Source: a bacterium (GTDB lineage Bacteria; SZUA-79; Acidulodesulfobacterales; Acidulodesulfobacteraceae). Taken from it: DNA of 49,716 bases. The notes below the pieces were generated by a model, which was given only the letters and a program-made list of their open reading frames with translations, was not told where the DNA came from and did not search any database. The stretch lies in NCBI GenBank assembly GCA_027319095.1, contig DAHVNW010000012.1:1-49716 (forward strand), in the 5' to 3' direction. Position numbers and translations under genes: made by a program. Below, in pieces: positions 1,135-29,861 of this stretch (its first letter is position 1; each line of letters begins with the position of its first letter).

Positions 1135-1869
1135 ATGAGTGAAGAAAACAAAAACCCCGTCACCGAAAAAATCGAAAGCGCAAAAGGAGGCCATTTTTAT
1201 AAGGAAATTATGAAAGATTTCCGCATTAAAGAATCTCTTCACGGTTGCCTGAATTGCGGAACATGCGTAGCAAATTGCCCGGCCGCAGCATTTTACGATT
1301 ACTCGCCGCGCGAAGTATGTCAAATGATGATTGAAGGGGACGAGGAAACAATCGAAGAGTATATGAAGGGCAAGATATGGAATTGTGCCCAGTGCTATAG
1401 TTGCAAATACAGGTGTCCGAAAGAAAATTCGGCGGCCGATATAGTTATGGCCATGAGAGAGATTGCCGTCAGGGAAGGTCTTGCGGAAGAAGCTCTTGCC
1501 GGATACACGAGGATAGCAAAGTTAGTCTTAACAAGAGGAAACCAGCTTGCGCCGGATATGCTTTCTCCGGATGCTTTCCCAGATTGGGGTCCTAGAATGA
1601 TCGAACTTTCCTCCAAAAAGATGGAAATGAGGGAAGAGCTTTTCAAGGGTTTTCCCGGTATGAACGTAGTCGACAGGGCATGGGCCGCGGAAGATTATAC
1701 TATTTTCGAAATGCAAAAGATATGGGAAGAAAGCGGCGCCTTGGAAAAAGTAGGAACGGTATTTCCGTTCTTAGTCGATATAGTTCAGGACGATATGGAC
1801 GATAAAAGAGACGAAATGGAAGTAAAAATTAACGAAAAAAAAGCGAAATTAGAAGCGTCTAAAAAATAA
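1135..1869 (+). CDS. shdrC1: sHdrC1: heterodisulfide-reductase-like iron-sulfur subunit C
   Basis: This 244-residue protein carries two classical [4Fe-4S] motifs: C38-x2-C41-x2-C44-x3-C48-P and C84-x2-C87-x2-C90-x3-C94-P. That is the HdrC electron-transfer arrangement. It starts a series C1-B1-A-C2-B2, which is the hallmark of the cytoplasmic sulfur-oxidising sHdr complex and differs from methanogen HdrABC, where C and B occur once. In that complex HdrC subunits are thought to pass electrons between the catalytic B subunits and the flavoprotein A. The start is fixed by a strong ribosome site (gaggagg) 8-12 bases upstream of the ATG. The acidic, Lys-rich C-terminal tail has no recognised domain. 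No membrane segment is visible. Confidence 0.85.
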   Translation: MSEENKNPVTEKIESAKGGHFYKEIMKDFRIKESLHGCLNCGTCVANCPAAAFYDYSPREVCQMMIEGDEETIEEYMKGKIWNCAQCYSCKYRCPKENSAADIVMAMREIAVREGLAEEALAGYTRIAKLVLTRGNQLAPDMLSPDAFPDWGPRMIELSSKKMEMREELFKGFPGMNVVDRAWAAEDYTIFEMQKIWEESGALEKVGTVFPFLVDIVQDDMDDKRDEMEVKINEKKAKLEASKK

Positions 1870-2051: not shown

Positions 2052-2109
2052 GCCGGAACGACAAGGATAAAAGTTTTACAAAAATTTAACAGATATATTG
2101 GAGGGCATT

Positions 2110-3201
2110 ATGTCTTATGAGATAAACGACGTTAAAACGGGCATAAATCATGCAAAAGGTATGAATTACCACGTGCATGACATTAGAGCCGAAATGAAAA
2201 AGCTCGAAGAAGAAGGAGAAATTAAAATAGGCCGTATTATCGGACCTTATAAGGAAGAAGAAGTTATGTACGGCATCAAAAAGAAGATTCCTTTGGATAT
2301 GCATTATCAGCACAAAAGTTGCGGTCAGTGCGCCAACCTTCCGGGAGTTCCGAGGTCTAATTTTTATTACAGGGATAAACTTGGAATAAAATATTACAAC
2401 GATATGCAGCAAACGTCTTGTACGGCTTGGAATTACCACGCATCGGGACTTGGAAACCTGGTCCAGCTTGCTTCCGTCGCGGCAAGAAACTGGCACAGGG
2501 CTTACGAAGAAGGTTATAATTTTACGATACACTGCGTTACCAGCTTTGGAAACTATCTCGAAATGAGACATTTGCTGGTTAGCAATAAAGAGTTGAGAGA
2601 CGCCGTTAAAAAAGTTCTCGCGTCGCTTGGAAGAGAATTAGTAATTCCAGAAGAAATAGTCCACGACAGCGAAATAGCCTATGCTTTAAGGGATAAAATA
2701 TTTGAAGCCGCAGATCCGAAAAGGATTGAAGGAATTAAGAGATTAAGAGCTGTAGAGCATTACGGCTGCCATTTCTTTAAACAGGTGTCCGACGACATAA
2801 TCGGCGGAAAAAGACCGATAGTCGTCGGCGGTCTGGCCTCGCACCTCGGCGTGCAGATGGAGGAATATTCCAAATGGTTTATGTGCTGCGGATTTGGATT
2901 CAGGCATATTTTAGTCAACAGGGAATTTACAAGGTCGGCGCAAAATATTAAATTAAAAGCCATTAAGGAGGAAGTAGATCCCGATATGATATTAGTTAAC
3001 TGCACGGGATGCGGAACTACTTTCGACAAAACACAGTGGATACAAAAAGCCGTCGGAGAAGATTATCATTATCCGGTAATATTTTATTCCCAGTTAGCAG
3101 CTCTTGCTCTCGGCGCTCATCCCTTTAAAGAAGCAGGTTTAGATTTTCACGTTACTCCGGTAGAACCGCTTTTGGATAAGATGGGAATAGCTTATAATTA
3201 A
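2110..3201 (+). CDS. shdrB1: sHdrB1: heterodisulfide-reductase-like catalytic subunit B (CCG protein)
   Basis: The second cysteine-rich CCG domain is complete: C220, then C259-C260-G, then C298-x2-C301. This is the pattern that binds a noncubane [4Fe-4S] cluster in HdrB. The first domain is degenerate: C71/C74 are present, only a single C104 stands where CC is expected, and C142 is followed by VTS instead of a CxxC. The start is ATG 2110, because the TTG 12 bases upstream (2098) overlaps the GGAGG ribosome site used by this ATG. The 363-residue length includes an N-terminal extension of about 65 residues before the first cysteines. It sits between C1 and A as expected for sHdrB1, which works with sHdrA in sulfur-substrate oxidation. 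Confidence 0.85.
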   Translation: MSYEINDVKTGINHAKGMNYHVHDIRAEMKKLEEEGEIKIGRIIGPYKEEEVMYGIKKKIPLDMHYQHKSCGQCANLPGVPRSNFYYRDKLGIKYYNDMQQTSCTAWNYHASGLGNLVQLASVAARNWHRAYEEGYNFTIHCVTSFGNYLEMRHLLVSNKELRDAVKKVLASLGRELVIPEEIVHDSEIAYALRDKIFEAADPKRIEGIKRLRAVEHYGCHFFKQVSDDIIGGKRPIVVGGLASHLGVQMEEYSKWFMCCGFGFRHILVNREFTRSAQNIKLKAIKEEVDPDMILVNCTGCGTTFDKTQWIQKAVGEDYHYPVIFYSQLAALALGAHPFKEAGLDFHVTPVEPLLDKMGIAYN

Positions 3202-3283: not shown

Positions 3284-4333
3284 GTGAAAACAGTTTTGGT
3301 TATCGGAGGAGGAGTTACGGGACTTAAAGCGTCGTCCGAACTTGCAGAAATGGGTTATAACGTTACTTTAGTAGAAAAAGAGGATTATCTCGGCGGACAG
3401 GTAGCAAAACACAAGTATTATAAGCTTGCTCCCGATTTAAGGCTTGCCGGCGAAGTAATCGACCCCGTTATTAAAGCCGTAGAGAATAATTCCAACATCA
3501 AGGTATATAAACATTCGCATGTTGCGGCTGTTTCCGGAAACGCTCCGGAATTTAAAGCAAAAATTAAAAATTCAAAAGGGGAAAGCGAAGAAAATTTCGG
3601 GGCTATCGTAGTTGCGACCGGATTCGAACATTTCGATCCAACCGTTAAACAGGAATACGGTTACGGAAGATTTAAAGACGTGGTTACCAATGCAGAAGTC
3701 GAAGAGATGCTTAATCCTGGCGGTCCTACCAATGGCGAATTAAAAAGGCCCTCGGACGGAGAAACGCCCAAAAAAATCGCAATATTTCAATGCGTAGGCT
3801 CTAGGGACAGACAGGTTGGAAATCCTTACTGCTGCAGGGTAGGATGCGTCGTTTCCACGAAGCAGGCCATAGAAATAAAGGAAAAATATCCCGATTCCGA
3901 AGTTTACGTATATTATATGGATATGAGAATGTTCGGAAGAGGATGGGAAGAGCTTTACGGCAAAGCGATGGAAGAATATGAAATCATATTTACGAGAGGA
4001 AGAGGAGCGGAAGTAACGCTTAAAAATCAGCAGTTATCTTTAAGAGCGGAAGAAACTATTATGGACAGACCCATACAACATTCCGTCGATATGATTATTC
4101 TTGCCGCTGGAATGGCAGCCGGCGAAGGAACTATAGAAGCCGCAAATGTCCTTGGAATCAAGCAAAACGACTACGGTTTTCTCGAGCCAAAAGACGATTT
4201 CGTCAGTCCTAACGAGTCGTCGAAACCCGGCATATTCATCGCCGGCGCGGATAAAGGACCTATGGATATAGAAAACTGCATTGTGGAAGGCGCTGCCGTA
4301 GCCGCAAAAGTAGCAAGCAGCTTAAAAAATTAA
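3284..4333 (+). CDS. shdrA: sHdrA: FAD-binding heterodisulfide-reductase-like subunit A
   Basis: This 349-residue flavoprotein opens with a Rossmann dinucleotide motif (VLVIGGGVTGLKASSELAE, 4-22). It has the HdrA cysteine region 'FQCVGSRD...NPYCCRVGC' with C170, C183, C184 and C188. A C-terminal FAD contact 'PGIFIAGADKGPMDI' lies at about 321-335. The length matches the short sHdrA form, without the extra ferredoxin domains of methanogen HdrA. It starts with GTG preceded by a good AAAGGAGG ribosome site. In known systems it is the flavin hub connecting the two C/B pairs. The neighbours B1 upstream and C2 downstream (74 bases) fit an operon. The separate small 'H' gene seen between A and C2 in many type I sHdr loci is absent. 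Confidence 0.9.
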   Translation: MKTVLVIGGGVTGLKASSELAEMGYNVTLVEKEDYLGGQVAKHKYYKLAPDLRLAGEVIDPVIKAVENNSNIKVYKHSHVAAVSGNAPEFKAKIKNSKGESEENFGAIVVATGFEHFDPTVKQEYGYGRFKDVVTNAEVEEMLNPGGPTNGELKRPSDGETPKKIAIFQCVGSRDRQVGNPYCCRVGCVVSTKQAIEIKEKYPDSEVYVYYMDMRMFGRGWEELYGKAMEEYEIIFTRGRGAEVTLKNQQLSLRAEETIMDRPIQHSVDMIILAAGMAAGEGTIEAANVLGIKQNDYGFLEPKDDFVSPNESSKPGIFIAGADKGPMDIENCIVEGAAVAAKVASSLKN

Positions 4334-4407: not shown

Positions 4408-5052
4408 ATGGCGGAAAATACTGATAAAATGGTTATAGACGGAGTGGAACTCACCGGCATTTGGAAAGAATTTCTTCCATCGAGAATATTATACGAGGAC
4501 GTTACCACGGAGTTTCTCGACGAAGTAAAAAAACTTCCCGGCGGTTCGACTATCGTCAGATGTTACCAATGCGGAACTTGTTCCGGCGGATGCACTCTCC
4601 CCGATTTCGTCGATAAATTTAATCCAAGAAGATTTATCGACTTAGTCAGGAGAGGGCATTACGATATATTAGTCAACGAAAACAAAGACCTGGTGTGGAA
4701 ATGCGTTTCATGCCAGAGATGCACCCACAGATGCCCAAGAGGCGTAAATACGCAGGAAGTAGTTAGGGCGATAGCCAAGTTCCTGGAAGACAGAAAAGTG
4801 TTTGGAAAACTTACTAACGACGAAGCCTTTGACGAAATATTTATGGAAGAGGTTATCGAAGACGGAAGAATAGACGAGGTCAAAATAGTAAAAGATTTCT
4901 ATTCGAAAACCGGCAGGCTTAAAGAAATGATGAGTTCCGACCAGATTGCGCTCGGTTTTAAAATGCTTACCAGCGGCAGAATAAAGCTCTTTGGAGGTAA
5001 AATTAAGGACTGGAAGAAAGTTTCCCAGAGGCTAAAGGAGGAATTACAATGA
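4408..5052 (+). CDS. shdrC2: sHdrC2: heterodisulfide-reductase-like iron-sulfur subunit C
   Basis: This 214-residue protein has two [4Fe-4S] motifs: C52-x2-C55-x2-C58-x3-C62 and C99-x2-C102-x2-C105-x3-C109-P-R. The first lacks the usual proline after the fourth cysteine. It is the second HdrC copy, expected to pair with the B2 subunit encoded next. Its TGA stop overlaps the ATG of shdrB2 (ATGA), indicating translational coupling. The ribosome site AAGGAG is 6 bases before the ATG. The C-terminal third (DEAFDEIFMEEVIEDGRIDE onward) matches the extra helical region typical of HdrC-type proteins. Confidence 0.88.
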   Translation: MAENTDKMVIDGVELTGIWKEFLPSRILYEDVTTEFLDEVKKLPGGSTIVRCYQCGTCSGGCTLPDFVDKFNPRRFIDLVRRGHYDILVNENKDLVWKCVSCQRCTHRCPRGVNTQEVVRAIAKFLEDRKVFGKLTNDEAFDEIFMEEVIEDGRIDEVKIVKDFYSKTGRLKEMMSSDQIALGFKMLTSGRIKLFGGKIKDWKKVSQRLKEELQ

Positions 5053-5954
5053 AAATAGGGTATTTTCCGGGCTGTTCTTTAAAAGGAATGGCGCGCGCTT
5101 ACGACGAATCGACGAAAATAGTCGCCGAAGAGTTCGGAATAGATTTGATGGAAATAGAAGATTTTAACTGTTGCGGCGCTCTCGAAATAAAAGGGTCCAA
5201 CGAAAAGCTGTCCTATATGCTTCCGGCAAGGGTCATGGATTCCGCCAAAGGAAGATTTAACGTAGATGCAGTAGTAACTCCTTGCAACGGATGTTACCAC
5301 AGCTTATTAAGGACGAATGAAGCAATGAACGAAAACAATGCTTCCAAAGGAGACGTTATAAGCTTCCTTAAAGACGTAGGTTACGGGACATACGAAGGAG
5401 ATATGGACGTCAGACATTTTCTCGAACTTTTCTATAACGAAATAGGACCGGAAAAAGTAAAATCCTCCGTGAAAAAAACCCTTAAAGGGTTAAAAGTCGC
5501 TTCTTATTACGGCTGCTTATACGAAAGGCCGAAAACTATAACCAAAACCGGTTACAAGAGCAAAAGAGACGATTCCGAAAATCCGTATTTTCAGGATGAG
5601 TTATTGAAAGCGACAGGGGCAGAAGTCGTTGAATTTCATGCTTCAGCCTCATGCTGCGGCGGGGCGCACGCCCTTCAGGACGAATCTCTCGCCGCAACCC
5701 TGTCAGCCGCCGTTTTGTCTTCCGCAAAAGAGGCCGGAGCCGACATGCTGGTTCTTCCATGCCCGTTATGCGGAGCGGCTTTGGATATAAAACAGCCTGA
5801 AATAATAAAAGCTCACGGCGAAAAAGCCAAACTTCCCGTAGTATATTTTACTCAACTTATAGGCCTAAGCATAGGCAAATCTCCGAAGGAGCTTAAACTG
5901 TCCGATCCGATTTCTAACCCGATGGAAGTTTTAAAAGCAAAAGGGCTTGCTTAG
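5049..5954 (+). CDS. shdrB2: sHdrB2: heterodisulfide-reductase-like catalytic subunit B (two CCG domains)
   Basis: Both CCG domains are intact in this 301-residue protein. Domain 1 has C9, C41-C42-G and C79-x2-C82. Domain 2 has C156, C202-C203-G and C238-x2-C241. This predicts two noncubane [4Fe-4S] clusters, in contrast to B1 with one degenerate domain. The gene overlaps shdrC2 by 4 bases and closes the core series. In the sHdr model it is a candidate site for chemistry on sulfur bound to a carrier or to LbpA. A GC-rich hairpin and repeat R1b follow immediately, suggesting that the transcription unit ends or is attenuated here. Confidence 0.9.
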   Translation: MKIGYFPGCSLKGMARAYDESTKIVAEEFGIDLMEIEDFNCCGALEIKGSNEKLSYMLPARVMDSAKGRFNVDAVVTPCNGCYHSLLRTNEAMNENNASKGDVISFLKDVGYGTYEGDMDVRHFLELFYNEIGPEKVKSSVKKTLKGLKVASYYGCLYERPKTITKTGYKSKRDDSENPYFQDELLKATGAEVVEFHASASCCGGAHALQDESLAATLSAAVLSSAKEAGADMLVLPCPLCGAALDIKQPEIIKAHGEKAKLPVVYFTQLIGLSIGKSPKELKLSDPISNPMEVLKAKGLA

Positions 5955-6207: not shown

Positions 6208-6648
6208 ATGTCGTCGAAAATTAACGGATGTGAAGTTCCCGAAGATTTATATTACAGCGTGGAAAAACACGTATGGGGAAAAATCGGGGAAGACGGTATT
6301 GTTACCGTCGGTATGACAAGCGTCGCACAAAGTCTTGCAGGCAAACTTTTATACCTTACCCCTAAAAAAATCGGACAAAAAATTCCGCAGCTTAAATCCG
6401 TAGCTACGGTCGAAAGCGGAAAATACGTAGGTCCGGTTCCCGCTCCATTTTCCGGCGAAATAACGGCTATTAACGAAGATGCCGTTAAGGACGTATCTTT
6501 AATAAACTCGGATCCTTACGGAAAAGGATGGGTCTGCAAAATTAAAGCCGATAATATAGACGGCGACAAAAAAAATCTTCTCACAGGAAAAGAAGCGGTA
6601 GAAGCATACAAAAAAAAGATAGAAGCCGACGGGATCAAATGCGAATAA
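6208..6648 (+). CDS. lbpA1: LbpA1: lipoate-binding protein of the sHdr system (GcvH-like)
   Basis: This 146-residue single-domain protein has the GcvH lipoyl fold. The lipoylation site is K72 in 'VESGKYVGP', where true glycine-cleavage GcvH usually has 'ESVKAAS'. That replacement is characteristic of the LbpA proteins linked to sHdr. Other conserved blocks are 'PEDLYYSVEKHVWG' at 11-24 and 'GMTSVAQSLAGKLLY' at 35-49. A Cys at 8 is near the N-terminus. LbpA is the essential lipoylated partner of sHdr in sulfur oxidation, and no glycine-cleavage genes are nearby. It has a strong AAGGAGG ribosome site and lies 18 bases before a paralogue. Confidence 0.9.
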   Translation: MSSKINGCEVPEDLYYSVEKHVWGKIGEDGIVTVGMTSVAQSLAGKLLYLTPKKIGQKIPQLKSVATVESGKYVGPVPAPFSGEITAINEDAVKDVSLINSDPYGKGWVCKIKADNIDGDKKNLLTGKEAVEAYKKKIEADGIKCE

Positions 6649-6666: not shown

Positions 6667-7113
6667 ATGCCTTTTTTTAACGAATGCAATATCCCCGAAG
6701 ACCTTTATTACGATGTAGAAAATCAGGTTTGGGGCAGAAAAAACGATGACGGGACTTTTACTTTCGGAATGACCGACCCTGCCCAGTCATTAGCTGGTAA
6801 AATACTTTACGCAGATGTTAAACCAGTAGGCAAAATTATTAAAAAAGGCAAAAGTGCGGCTACGATAGAAAGCGGGAAATACGTTGGACCTTTTCCGATG
6901 CCCTTTGCCGGAGAAATAGTCGAAGTTAACAAAGAATTAGAAAACGATTCCCACATAATAAATTTAGATCCTTACGGCAAGGGTTGGATAGTCAAATTAA
7001 AACCTCTTCCGGAATCCTTATCGGACGTTAAATCGTTTCCCACAGGAGAAGAAACCGTTAAAGCGTATATAAATAAACTCGAAAAAGAAGATATAATTTG
7101 TAAAAAGAGATAA
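6667..7113 (+). CDS. lbpA2: LbpA2: second lipoate-binding protein (GcvH-like)
   Basis: This 148-residue paralogue of the preceding gene has K71 in 'IESGKYVGP' as the predicted lipoyl attachment site. 'PEDLYYDVENQVWG' and 'GMTDPAQSLAGKILY' match LbpA1, and an N-terminal Cys is at 7. Clear divergence in surface loops (for example the C-terminal 'ESLSDVKSFPTGEETVKAY') argues for different partners or roles rather than a recent copy. It has a GGAGG ribosome site. Its stop lies 2 bases before the start of lipS1, indicating one transcript and probable translational coupling. Confidence 0.9.
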   Translation: MPFFNECNIPEDLYYDVENQVWGRKNDDGTFTFGMTDPAQSLAGKILYADVKPVGKIIKKGKSAATIESGKYVGPFPMPFAGEIVEVNKELENDSHIINLDPYGKGWIVKLKPLPESLSDVKSFPTGEETVKAYINKLEKEDIICKKR

Positions 7114-7115
7114 AT

Positions 7116-8123
7116 ATGAGTTTTTACGAATTTGACGATAATATTAAAAACGAATATCTCGAAGGATTTAATATAAGGAAAGATTATTTCGATTCCGAAA
7201 TCCATTTTTACGCTCCAAGCATTAAATCTTACGAAACGGAAGATTTTAAAAATAATAAATCAGACTCTTTCCCTCCTTTTTCCATTACAGGAAGTTCGTG
7301 TTCCTTAAAATGCGAACACTGTAACGCCGAAATATTAAAATCTATGGCTCCGGCCTTAACGCCGGATGAACTTTTTGAGAAAGCAAAAGCAATATACGAT
7401 TCAGGCGGGTTGGGTTTTTTGCTCAGCGGCGGCTCTAACGGCAAAGGCATTGTCGATATTTTGCCTTATATAAATACCATAAAAAAAATAAAATCGGATT
7501 TCAATCTAAAAGTCATAGCGCATTGCGGGCTGATAACGGAAGAAATAGCCGACGGCCTTTACGATGCCGGAATAGATTCGGCAATGCTAGATATTATCGG
7601 GGAAGAGGATACGATACGCAAAGTATATCATTTAAACGCGACCGTTAAGGATTACGAAAATTCTTTAAAACGCCTGTCCGAAAGGAAAATACCCTGTTCT
7701 CCGCATGTAGTAATCGGATTAAAACATGGGCAAATTGCCGGAGAATTTAACGCTATAGATATTATTTCGAACTTTAGTATTTCTTCTTTAGTTTTAGTCG
7801 GTTTTATGCCTATGCATAATACTAAAATGGAAAATATCGCTCCTCCGGCTGCAGAAGAAATTGGGGAAGTATTTTTATATGCCAGGAAAAAATTTACCGG
7901 GACGCCGGTGCTTTTAGGATGCGAAAGACCTTATGGATTAAACAAATTTAAAATTGAAGAATTAGCCGTTAAATCGGGATTAAACGGAATTGCATATCCT
8001 TCCGAAGGAATTATACCTTTTAGCGTAAAACTCGGATTAAAGCCCAAATTTTCGGAAATATGCTGTTCCCTGATTTTTTCCGAAACAGCTTTACCCGCTA
8101 TAGAAATCGGCGGACAGGTTTAA
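7116..8123 (+). CDS. lipS1: LipS1: radical SAM protein of lipoate assembly
   Basis: This 335-residue radical SAM protein has the [4Fe-4S] motif C62-x3-C66-x2-C69 in 'SSCSLKCEHCNAEI', followed by 'LSGGSNGKG', a GGE-type SAM-binding equivalent. Further cysteines at the C-terminal end (ICCS) may hold the auxiliary cluster that donates sulfur. Together with the homologue at 10073-11140 and the ligase between them it matches the sLpl/LipS1/LipS2 lipoate pathway found beside sHdr genes, where the two enzymes insert the two sulfur atoms into octanoyl-LbpA. Assigning it as S1 rather than S2 is based on overall pattern and gene order. It starts 2 bases after lbpA2 with no clear ribosome site of its own. 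Confidence 0.8.
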   Translation: MSFYEFDDNIKNEYLEGFNIRKDYFDSEIHFYAPSIKSYETEDFKNNKSDSFPPFSITGSSCSLKCEHCNAEILKSMAPALTPDELFEKAKAIYDSGGLGFLLSGGSNGKGIVDILPYINTIKKIKSDFNLKVIAHCGLITEEIADGLYDAGIDSAMLDIIGEEDTIRKVYHLNATVKDYENSLKRLSERKIPCSPHVVIGLKHGQIAGEFNAIDIISNFSISSLVLVGFMPMHNTKMENIAPPAAEEIGEVFLYARKKFTGTPVLLGCERPYGLNKFKIEELAVKSGLNGIAYPSEGIIPFSVKLGLKPKFSEICCSLIFSETALPAIEIGGQV

Positions 8124-8186: not shown

Positions 8187-8212
8187 CACATAAACGGCAT
8201 GCCGTTTATGTG
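8187..8212 (+). promoter_or_regulatory. Perfect 26-bp palindrome upstream of the lipoate ligase
   Basis: Thirteen-base half-sites (CACATAAACGGCA and its complement) meet without a spacer, 45 bases upstream of the ligase ATG. The right half plus following A/T-rich bases (8199-8229) matches 10004-10034 upstream of lipS2 at about 27 of 31 positions. It could be a shared operator for the two units or a dispersed repeat. Confidence 0.5.
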
Positions 8213-8257
8213 AAAAAATAATTTTCTATCTGTAATTTCAGATAAAATTGACGCGGA

Positions 8258-9793
8258 ATGTTTAGAGTAATAGACACCGGTTTAAAAGATTTTGCATATA
8301 ATATCTGCATGGATAAATCCCTCCTCGAACTCAGGAAAGAAGGGAAGATAGAGGACACTTTCCGTTTTTTAAGGTTTAAACCGTGCGTTCTTGTAGGATT
8401 TCATCAGTCCGTATTCAGCGAGATAAGGCAGGATTACTGCGAAGAAAAAGCCATAGGCGTAGGAAGAAGGATTACCGGCGGCGGAGCTATATATTTCGAC
8501 GAGATGCAGCTTGGCTGGGAACTTGTATTTTCTTCCAAAAGCATCAAAGTAAAAAATCTCGAAAATTTAACCGAAAATGTATGCTCGGCATTCGCCCAAG
8601 GAATTAAAAAACTTGGAATAGATGCAAAATTTAGGCCGAGAAACGATATAGAAGTGGAAGGACGAAAGATTTCGGGAACCGGCGGAACTTATGAATCCTC
8701 CGTTTACTTTTTTCAAGGAACTTTGCTATTAGATTTTAATCCCGAAAATATGGCTAAATCCTTAAAAATTCCAATCGAAAAATTGACGTCCAAAAATTTC
8801 GAGTCGATTCTTTCGAGAATTACGTCGGTTAAAGATATTTTAGGATATATACCCGATATCGACGCAATAAAACAGGTCATCCTCCAAGGTTTTAAAGAAC
8901 ATATAGGTCTGGACTTTTACGAATCCGGACTTGTTTCAGAAGAAAAAAGATTTCTAAAGGAACACGCCGGTTTCTACGGCTCGAGGGAATGGGTTTATTC
9001 AAACGAGTTCGATCCAGTTTCTACGGATATGGTGTCCGAAATTTATAAATGCGGCGGCGGCCTTTTTAAAACTTATGCAAAAATCGACAAAAAAAGAAAT
9101 TTATTAAAATATATTTATTTTACCGGCGATTATTTCGTTTCTCCCGCAAGAACTATAAATGATTTGGAGAGCTATTTAAAAGATACGCCCATGGAAGAAA
9201 TAACATTTAAGATAAACGATTATTTCGACAAGTTTAAGCCGGAATTTCAAAACGTCGAAAAAGAAGATTTTTTCAATATAGCCGCTCAGATTACAAATAA
9301 AATTAATTTTGCTAAAAAAACGGGGATAAAAGAAGAGGATTTGTCTAAATTTATTTTTGTAAACGGAATGAAACCGGAAGATATTCCTTCGGCAGAATAT
9401 ATTCTTTTACCTTATTGCGCAAAAAAATCGGATTGCGAATACAGAAATAAAGATAACTGCATATCCTGCGGGGAATGCGAGACGGGAACCGCCTATAAAT
9501 TTGCCGAAAGATACGGGATTATACCTAAAACGATTATAAATTACGAAAATTTAATCGAAACTTTGTCCGTCCTTAAAAAAGACAACGTTAAATCTTATAT
9601 AGGGTTTTGCTGCAAAGAATTTTATATAAAAAGAAGCAGCGCCTTTAAAAAAAGCGGTATAAAATCGCTGTTAATAGATATTTCATCGCCTTTATGCTAT
9701 AAGTATAAAAAAGAAGATGATGCTTACGCCGGAAAATTTACAGGCGAAACGTCTCTTGGAGTCAATATTTTATTTAAAATGTTCAATAAATAA
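8258..9793 (+). CDS. sLplA-type lipoate-protein ligase fused to a DUF116-like domain
   Basis: Residues 1 to about 230 form a LplA-type ligase: 'GRRITGGGAIYFDE' (69-82) is the nucleotide/lipoyl-binding loop and K137 in 'RKISGTGG' is the conserved catalytic lysine. Residues about 235-350 look like the accessory C-terminal (LplB-like) region. Residues about 375-511 are an unusual third part, 'LPYCAKKSDCEYR...CISCGECETG', with C387, C393, C401, C404, C407, C451, C452 and C480, matching the DUF116 pattern. The ligase should attach octanoate or lipoate to LbpA1/LbpA2; the cysteine-rich part may bind a metal or Fe-S cluster. At 511 residues it is far longer than a usual ligase (about 250-340). It lies between lipS1 and lipS2 and the ribosome site is weak. 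Confidence 0.82.
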   Translation: MFRVIDTGLKDFAYNICMDKSLLELRKEGKIEDTFRFLRFKPCVLVGFHQSVFSEIRQDYCEEKAIGVGRRITGGGAIYFDEMQLGWELVFSSKSIKVKNLENLTENVCSAFAQGIKKLGIDAKFRPRNDIEVEGRKISGTGGTYESSVYFFQGTLLLDFNPENMAKSLKIPIEKLTSKNFESILSRITSVKDILGYIPDIDAIKQVILQGFKEHIGLDFYESGLVSEEKRFLKEHAGFYGSREWVYSNEFDPVSTDMVSEIYKCGGGLFKTYAKIDKKRNLLKYIYFTGDYFVSPARTINDLESYLKDTPMEEITFKINDYFDKFKPEFQNVEKEDFFNIAAQITNKINFAKKTGIKEEDLSKFIFVNGMKPEDIPSAEYILLPYCAKKSDCEYRNKDNCISCGECETGTAYKFAERYGIIPKTIINYENLIETLSVLKKDNVKSYIGFCCKEFYIKRSSAFKKSGIKSLLIDISSPLCYKYKKEDDAYAGKFTGETSLGVNILFKMFNK

Positions 9794-9994: not shown

Positions 9995-10017
9995 TATAAA
10001 CGAATGCCGTTTATGTA
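9995..10017 (+). promoter_or_regulatory. Imperfect palindrome upstream of lipS2
   Basis: ATAAACG and CGTTTAT arms surround a five-base centre, 56 bases upstream of the lipS2 ATG. It is a diverged copy of the perfect palindrome at 8187-8212, in the same relative position to a gene of the same pathway. Confidence 0.45.
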
Positions 10018-10072
10018 GAAAATTAATTTTATATAGGTGGATTAAGGATATACTAAGAGGAAATTATAATTT

Positions 10073-11140
10073 ATGAATAATGAAACGGCTGCATTAAATT
10101 TCAATTACGATGGCGAAAGCTCCCCTCAATATCTAAAGGTAAGTCTTGCGGCGGCAATGACTATGGATTTTGTGCCGGGAATTTTTTACAGGGGCGCATG
10201 CCTTCACTGCATAAACGTCCTCCTTACATACGACGACGGCTGCAGGGCAAACTGCGCTTACTGCGGGCTTCAAAAATCCCGCGAAGGGGAATATAACAAT
10301 AAAAGTTTTATAAGGGTCGATTGGCCGGCATTTAAAACGGACGATATTATAACATCCACCTTAAAGAAAAAAAACATAGTCGACAGAATATGTATATCCA
10401 TGATAACTCACGAAAGAGCTAAGGAAGATACTTTCACGGTTTTAAAAAGGTTTGCCTCCGAACTGCACTGCCCCGTTTCCATATTGATGACCCCTACGGT
10501 TTTAAAACACGAGGATATAGACAAGTTTAAAGAATACGGCGCGGACATGGTAACAGTTGCGCTGGATGCAGCCACTCCTGAGCTTTTTGACTTATATAGA
10601 GGCAGAGGTGTTGGCGGTCCGCACAGATGGGAAAAATATAACGATATTCTTGAATATTCCGTTTCAGTCTTCGGCAAAAATAAAGTCGGCTGCCATCTAG
10701 TAGTAGGTCTTGGCGAAACCGAAAAAGATATGGTTTTTAGAATGCAGTCGGTCAGGGATAAGGGCTCAAGATCTCACCTGTTTTCTTTTTATCAGGAAAA
10801 AGGCTCCAAATTGGAAAACCATCCCCAGTGTTCTGCGGGTCGATACAGGCGGATCCAGGTTGCAAGGCATATAATAGACTACGATATGGGAAGGGCAGAA
10901 GACATGAAATTTGAAACCGGCGGAAAAATAATAGATTTTGGGATTCATTTTAAAAATGTGGCTGAAATAATAGAAAACGGCGCTGCTTTTCAAACTACCG
11001 GATGTCCCGGAAAAACAGAAATTTCCGCATGCAACAGACCTTTCGGCGATTCGTCGCCGAAAAATATAAGGAGTTTTCCTTTCGAGCTTAACGCAAGCGA
11101 CGTCAACAGGGTCAGAAAAGAACTTATGGAATACGAATAG
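10073..11140 (+). CDS. lipS2: LipS2: radical SAM protein of lipoate assembly
   Basis: This 355-residue radical SAM enzyme has its cluster motif at C57-x3-C61-x2-C64 within 'DDGCRANCAYCGL', preceded by extra cysteines C43 and C46. Later cysteines near the C-terminus (TTGCPGKTEISACNRPFGD) are suited to an auxiliary cluster. The layout resembles biotin-synthase/LipA-like sulfur-inserting enzymes. With LipS1 it should complete the dithiolane on LbpA-bound octanoate. The ribosome site AAGAGG lies 12 bases before the ATG. It closes the lipoate module, and an R1 repeat fragment follows. Confidence 0.8.
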   Translation: MNNETAALNFNYDGESSPQYLKVSLAAAMTMDFVPGIFYRGACLHCINVLLTYDDGCRANCAYCGLQKSREGEYNNKSFIRVDWPAFKTDDIITSTLKKKNIVDRICISMITHERAKEDTFTVLKRFASELHCPVSILMTPTVLKHEDIDKFKEYGADMVTVALDAATPELFDLYRGRGVGGPHRWEKYNDILEYSVSVFGKNKVGCHLVVGLGETEKDMVFRMQSVRDKGSRSHLFSFYQEKGSKLENHPQCSAGRYRRIQVARHIIDYDMGRAEDMKFETGGKIIDFGIHFKNVAEIIENGAAFQTTGCPGKTEISACNRPFGDSSPKNIRSFPFELNASDVNRVRKELMEYE

Positions 11141-29766: not shown

Positions 29767-29861
29767 TGGCGGAAGCGTACGGGAATCGAACCCGCCTTGC
29801 CCTTATGGGGACAACAATCGATTTGAAGTCGAAGGGGAGCACCAGCCCTCCAATCACTTCC
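29767..29861 (-). tRNA. selC: Selenocysteine tRNA (UCA anticodon)
   Basis: Read on the minus strand it starts GGAAGTGAT and ends ACGCTTCC plus GCCA. The anticodon loop CTTCAAA carries TCA between paired TCGA/TCGA arms, there is a long variable arm, and the T-arm GCGGG-TTCGATT-CCCGT is intact. The total of 95 bases including CCA, the long acceptor stem and the UCA anticodon are diagnostic of tRNA-Sec. The genome therefore very likely makes selenoproteins; no selA, selB or selD is in the window. Confidence 0.92.

Follow-up and report, generated by a model that had tools for sequence, protein, structure and literature searches.

Lipoate assembly systems and the gene cluster of the window

Clusters which combine sHdr-LbpA sulfur-oxidation genes with a LipS1/LipS2 lipoate pathway are known, and the closest described system is the sLpl(AB)-LipS1/S2 pathway of the sHdr oxidisers Hyphomicrobium denitrificans and Thioalkalivibrio, where a ligase of LplA and LplB is clustered with lipS1, lipS2, LbpA and sHdr genes (PMC6067878, PMC10332631). 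Proteobacterial lipS1-slpl(AB)-lipT-lipS2 clusters have been described without a third ligase domain, and LipT was proposed to deliver electrons (PMC10332631). In T. kodakarensis, LipS2 acts first and LipS1 second, and the sulfur which they insert comes from auxiliary clusters that are sacrificed; both can take electrons from ferredoxin, ferredoxin reductase and NADPH, and only about 1-1.5 turnovers were obtained with this physiological-type reductant (PMC9585515). The DUF116 family (COG1852, arCOG02078) was earlier predicted to be flavodoxin-like, metal-binding and active in electron transfer (PMC5898192). A ligase in one chain with a part which serves the synthase step is found in NF053790 (LplA_LipA_fuse, NCBIfam), where the partner is lipoyl synthase, while in the ligase studied here it is DUF116 instead.

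The window is the whole stretch of DNA analyzed, 49,716 nucleotides in length. It possesses an sHdr sulfur-oxidation cluster in which the ligase is situated between lipS1 and lipS2. The gene order is HdrC-, HdrB-, HdrA-, HdrC- and HdrB-like, two GcvH-like, lipS1, ligase and lipS2, and the features are as follows.

1135..1869, + strand, HdrC-like sHdr subunit
2098..3201, + strand, HdrB-like sHdr subunit
3284..4333, + strand, HdrA-like sHdr subunit
4408..5052, + strand, second HdrC-like subunit
5049..5954, + strand, second HdrB-like (CCG) subunit
6208..6648, + strand, GcvH-like lipoate-binding protein (LbpA-type), likely target of the ligase (PF01597, 2.3e-34)
6667..7113, + strand, second GcvH-like lipoate-binding protein (LbpA-type) (PF01597, 2.6e-35)
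7116..8123, + strand, lipS1, radical-SAM lipoyl synthase subunit (NF053742, 8.6e-67)
8258..9793, + strand, Lpl(AB)-DUF116, three-domain lipoate-protein ligase (511 aa ORF)
8291..8896, + strand, LplA catalytic domain, residues 12-213 (PF21948, 1.4e-44; motifs RRITGGG and GRKISG)
9041..9277, + strand, LplB accessory domain, about residues 262-340 (NF053749, PF10437, PDB 3r07_C)
9368..9790, + strand, DUF116-like C-terminal domain, residues 371-511, with eight invariant Cys (PF01976, 3.5e-10)
10073..11140, + strand, lipS2, radical-SAM lipoyl synthase subunit (NF053743, 5.3e-64; LipS2 tree)

LipS1 scored 225.6 bits against NF053742, under the equivalog cut-off of 230, and LipS2 scored 216.5 bits against NF053743, under the cut-off of 270; the radical-SAM CX3CX2C motif is present in both sequences. 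The ligases of the sHdr oxidisers are two-domain proteins while that of the window possesses DUF116 as a third domain, and unlike in their pathway clusters (PMC6067878, PMC10332631), no lipT was found in the window cluster; a lipT is frequent, though not universal, in clusters of this pathway. The LipT-like gene of this genome, whose orthology is weakly supported, is located outside the cluster at G000:C11. Classical LipA is also encoded in the genome.

Some other features of the window were recorded. Two stretches of about 40 bp, 85% alike, lie in the gaps before lpl (8190-8229) and lipS2 (9996-10034), and the lpl-lipS2 gap is 279 bp compared to 21-60 bp in two relatives. An ArsR-like regulator gene (465-845, + strand), recognized by reading only, precedes the sHdr genes and recalls sHdrR. 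A selenocysteine tRNA at 29771-29861 on the minus strand (Rfam RF01852, 68.2 bits) suggests selenoprotein synthesis in this organism.

Domain organization of the ligase and its DUF116-type domain

The initial annotation had described the 8258-9793 product as a ligase fused to an accessory and a DUF116-like domain, and the matches to PF21948, NF053749 and PF01976 bear out this architecture. The predicted LplB region is weaker than the LplA match yet clear. It matched NF053749 at residues 262-336 (4e-7, 30.1 bits, under the 65-bit cut-off), PF10437 at residues 275-340 (0.0055, under cut-off) and the LplB-type subunit of an archaeal ligase (PDB 3r07_C) at 1e-5. In the motif alignment, a catalytic-lysine motif of the GRKISG type was present in all ligase rows. 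As RRITGGG and GRKISG indicate an intact active site, ligation is likely, and the Lpl(AB) part is predicted to be a ligase acting on lipoate or octanoate. It was not assigned to the TIGR00545 equivalog because it scored 176.4 bits against a cut-off of 280 bits. The C-terminal region was found to match PF01976 over the Pfam gathering cut-off of 25 bits, as the initial annotation had anticipated, both in the whole protein (residues 378-481, 34.6 bits, E 1.6e-8) and as an isolated domain (40.0 bits, E 3.5e-10). The fusion ORF is neither a chance product nor an assembly artefact. The AlphaFold model of the full-length ligase showed good local confidence (pLDDT 86.6), but the placement of the domains in it was left aside because of the pTM of 0.54.

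Eight cysteines had been listed at residues 387, 393, 401, 404, 407, 451, 452 and 480. These positions are exact, and each cysteine, including those of a CxxCGxC motif, was present in 34/34 homologous domains. In an alignment with 39 canonical DUF116 sequences, seven of the eight each match one of the seven cysteines invariant there, among them those of the CxxCGxC motif, while C451 is specific to the ligase-linked subfamily. Profile-profile comparison of this subfamily with canonical DUF116 gave 96% probability. Subfamily members scored 196-212 bits against their own model, which was built partly from these same members, and canonical DUF116 proteins scored below 39 bits. The canonical proteins possess N-terminal membrane helices and CERDL...NGPC motifs, both of which are missing in the ligase-linked domain; the latter in turn has the extra cysteine, forming a CC pair, and a different C-terminal part. 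Judged by its sequence, the ligase-linked domain is a discrete and predicted soluble subfamily of DUF116.

The AlphaFold model of the isolated domain (pLDDT 89.9, pTM 0.86) showed strands and helices alternating in a Rossmann-like manner, which agrees with the flavodoxin-like, metal-binding and electron-transfer prediction made for canonical DUF116 (PMC5898192). By residue number, the cysteines would cluster at one edge of the sheet, after strand ends and before the first long helix. No relative of the domain model was retrieved from the PDB by Foldseek at E<0.001, and the sequence search of solved structures gave matches to the ligase parts and none to the DUF116 part; hence no function could be derived from structure. 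The conserved cysteine pattern suggests that the domain probably binds an Fe-S cluster, predicted to be most likely of the [4Fe-4S] type.

Distribution of the domain and its gene neighbourhood

The genome of the window belongs to the Ca. Acididesulfobacter group, which includes a named relative (L075, 66% identical). Most members of the window's family encode a full-length fusion, at 61-82% identity, and the plasmid search gave no copy of the fusion. Scanning the C-terminal domain against an 84,980-species genome collection revealed ten loci in other groups. Fused Lpl-DUF116 was found in L082 (a MAG labelled Actinomycetes), L083, L084 (Ca. Formimonas warabiya), L085 and L086 (Sumerlaeota), L087 (Bacillota), L088 (a MAG labelled proteobacterium) and L089 (CSSED10-310). 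In L082, L084 and L087-L089 the fusion is clustered with lipS2, lipS1 and a gene for a LipT-like FAD protein. In two Sporomusa genomes (L090 and L091), the ligase is unfused and DUF116 of the ligase-linked subfamily is a separate 188-aa gene (PF01976, 53-55 bits; 8854-9420 in L090) directly 3' of lpl-lipT-lipS2-lipS1. The neighbourhood survey proposed in the initial annotation has thus revealed recurrent clusters of lpl-DUF116, lipT-like, lipS2 and lipS1 genes in several phyla. The Bacillota MAG encodes Lpl(AB)-DUF116-LipA, with LipA complete, in one chain of 836 aa (L087:2559-5069), and its relatives G434 and G476 possess the same parts as adjacent genes. A further carrier, G060, shows a TusA-like gene upstream of the fusion and a LipT-like gene downstream, followed by the contig end.

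A few observations on these neighbourhoods are added here. The gene directly 5' of the fused ligase of G060 is a TusA/YedF-like sulfur-transfer gene (L028:211-459). In Sumerlaeota (L100:284-2290, minus strand, and L101), LipS2 and LipS1 form a single polypeptide of 668 aa. A GlcD-like FAD oxidase, a CCG Fe-S protein and one or two GcvH-like genes lie beside the lipoate genes in L262, L264, L265, L268, L087 and L090; this module is recurrent in Bacillota and represents a lipoyl-carrier-linked redox system distinct from sHdr.

The separate Sporomusa gene bears on two other readings of the domain. It could be a redox or iron sensor which switches the ligase on and off, as a Cys-rich domain sitting on an ATP-using ligase might suggest. 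This is very improbable, since the domain exists as its own gene in Sporomusa and accompanies the synthase genes rather than the ligase alone. It could also be a metal-stabilised docking or channelling module which joins the octanoylated carrier with LipS1/LipS2 and performs no redox chemistry, in line with the carrier delivery suggested in the initial annotation. Both the ligase fusion and the separate gene would suit such a scaffold, but the absolute conservation of eight cysteines including CxxCGxC exceeds the needs of a structural site, and LipS1/LipS2 act in vitro on octanoyl-peptides without the domain (PMC9585515), which makes docking an improbable role, though less so than sensing.

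Of the 11 distant carrier genomes, 10 encode LipS1. The exception is G060, an 89% complete, fragmented MAG in which the fusion is present and no LipS1 match was obtained. Among 386 broadly sampled genomes, 356 of them outside the window's family, LipS1 was present in 14/356 of these background genomes, and outside the family the ligase-linked subfamily occurred in one genome only, again G060. The enrichment of LipS1 in carriers gave a Fisher p of ~2e-12, computed with 357 background genomes, ignoring relatedness and comparing two samples drawn differently. LipS1 is therefore nearly constant in carriers, while most LipS1 genomes are non-carriers. In the LipS2 tree, all carriers fall within one strongly separated clade, shared with G080, G357 and G225, which lack the domain. 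The proposed link to the LipS1/LipS2 pathway was upheld by the clusters, the stand-alone Sporomusa gene and the presence of LipS1 in the distant carriers, and apart from G060 with its missing LipS1 match, the C-terminal region was not encountered on ligases unrelated to LipS1/LipS2. Universal occurrence of the domain in such systems was rejected, as many LipS1/S2 systems lack it. The pathway runs without it in other organisms, so the domain is an option which other carriers can replace.

The LipT-like proteins belong to the GG-reductase family (TIGR02032). Reading of gene contexts in 399 genomes of the Sporomusa phylum gave 11 more fused loci, all with a LipT-like gene, and seven DUF116-free loci of the same ligase clade, only one of them (L266) with a LipT-like gene. 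Counting loci outside the window's own family, a LipT-like gene was present in 21/23 with DUF116 against 1/7 without it (Fisher p 3e-4). All tested carrier genomes (17/17) possess a LipT-like gene somewhere, and none was found in G080, G357 and G225, which have related LipS2 and no DUF116 domain. On the ligase tree these patterns need about two changes for DUF116 against one for LipT, so the correlation is not phylogenetically independent evidence, and the co-occurrence is regarded as suggestive. Strict pairing was weakened by the few tree events, by L266 and by the proteobacterial clusters (PMC10332631), the last two of which indicate that LipT needs no DUF116. The few gain events would also be expected if neighbouring genes had been joined by chance and then inherited as a functionless, lineage-specific fusion. 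This is the least probable reading of all, since the cysteines are invariant over deep divergence (~36-47% identity), fused and unfused forms both exist and the domain is retained across phyla.

A second, canonical DUF116 (~167-180 bits) is generally encoded elsewhere in the genomes of the window's family. That of the window genome possesses N-terminal hydrophobic segments and adjoins fmt on a separate contig. Canonical DUF116 scored over cut-off in 4 of the 14 LipS1-positive genomes outside the family, each time off the lipS1 contig, and no linkage of the canonical membrane-anchored form to lipS1/S2 was seen in the genomes examined. On these grounds, a role of all DUF116 proteins in lipoate assembly was rejected. 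The expectation that this fusion could reveal what DUF116 does is accordingly sustained for the ligase-linked subfamily and not for the canonical membrane-anchored one.

Predicted role of the domain in lipoyl assembly

Taken with its gene context, the DUF116 domain is very probably a dedicated accessory of lipoyl assembly. The sacrificial clusters and the 1-1.5 turnovers imply that the synthases want two services, electrons and cluster renewal, and a Cys-rich domain tied to the ligase and the synthases could provide either. The initial annotation had suggested sulfur or Fe-S supply or octanoyl-carrier delivery, both of which are candidate roles. There is an even chance that the domain is a third LipS1/LipS2 component, a tethered Fe-S module which would couple octanoylation to sulfur insertion by means of electrons or clusters.

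One possibility is that a DUF116-borne cluster rebuilds the auxiliary [4Fe-4S] clusters of LipS1/LipS2 after each turnover, the domain being an Fe-S or sulfur donor. The T. kodakarensis enzymes use up these clusters and reach only about 1-1.5 turnovers, which points to a missing regeneration factor (PMC9585515); the eight invariant cysteines are in line with such a donor, and the Lpl-DUF116-LipA fusion fits a factor needed by any lipoyl synthase. By itself, however, cluster donation leaves the co-occurrence with the LipT-like flavoprotein unexplained. NfuA renews the auxiliary cluster of LipA and resembles the domain in this proposed role as regenerator, but no sequence match between the two was seen, their Cys patterns differ and no NifU/NfuA likeness appeared in the profile matches. 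The donor role is rather unlikely, though clearly ahead of docking or sensing.

Electron relay is preferred over cluster donation because of the LipT-like co-occurrence and the proposal of LipT as electron source; the triple fusion suits both alike. As against every other role, electron relay is put forward tentatively, at slightly less than an even chance, and the whole explanation, a LipS1/LipS2-pathway ligase with a built-in Fe-S electron-relay domain, is equally tentative. Under the electron relay, Lpl(AB) would attach octanoate (or lipoate) to a lysine of the adjacent LbpA proteins. The DUF116 domain would hold one [4Fe-4S] cluster, perhaps two, with the cysteines at one end of the sheet, and its tether to the ligase would keep it near the octanoylated carrier. 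Low-potential electrons would pass from the LipT-like flavoprotein through the DUF116 domain to LipS2 and then LipS1, which would insert the two sulfurs.

In the literature searched, which covered few subscription journals and supplementary tables, DUF116 and lipoate were not mentioned jointly. The domain is a real and recurrent accessory of a known pathway, apparently undescribed, and an overlooked, testable helper candidate of LipS1/LipS2. Electron supply and renewal of the sacrificial clusters are an unsolved problem of these synthases, for which the domain represents a concrete candidate. It also opens one branch of DUF116, a family without assigned function, to testing for the first time, and if it is an Fe-S module serving LipS1/LipS2, this would be the first biochemical role for DUF116.
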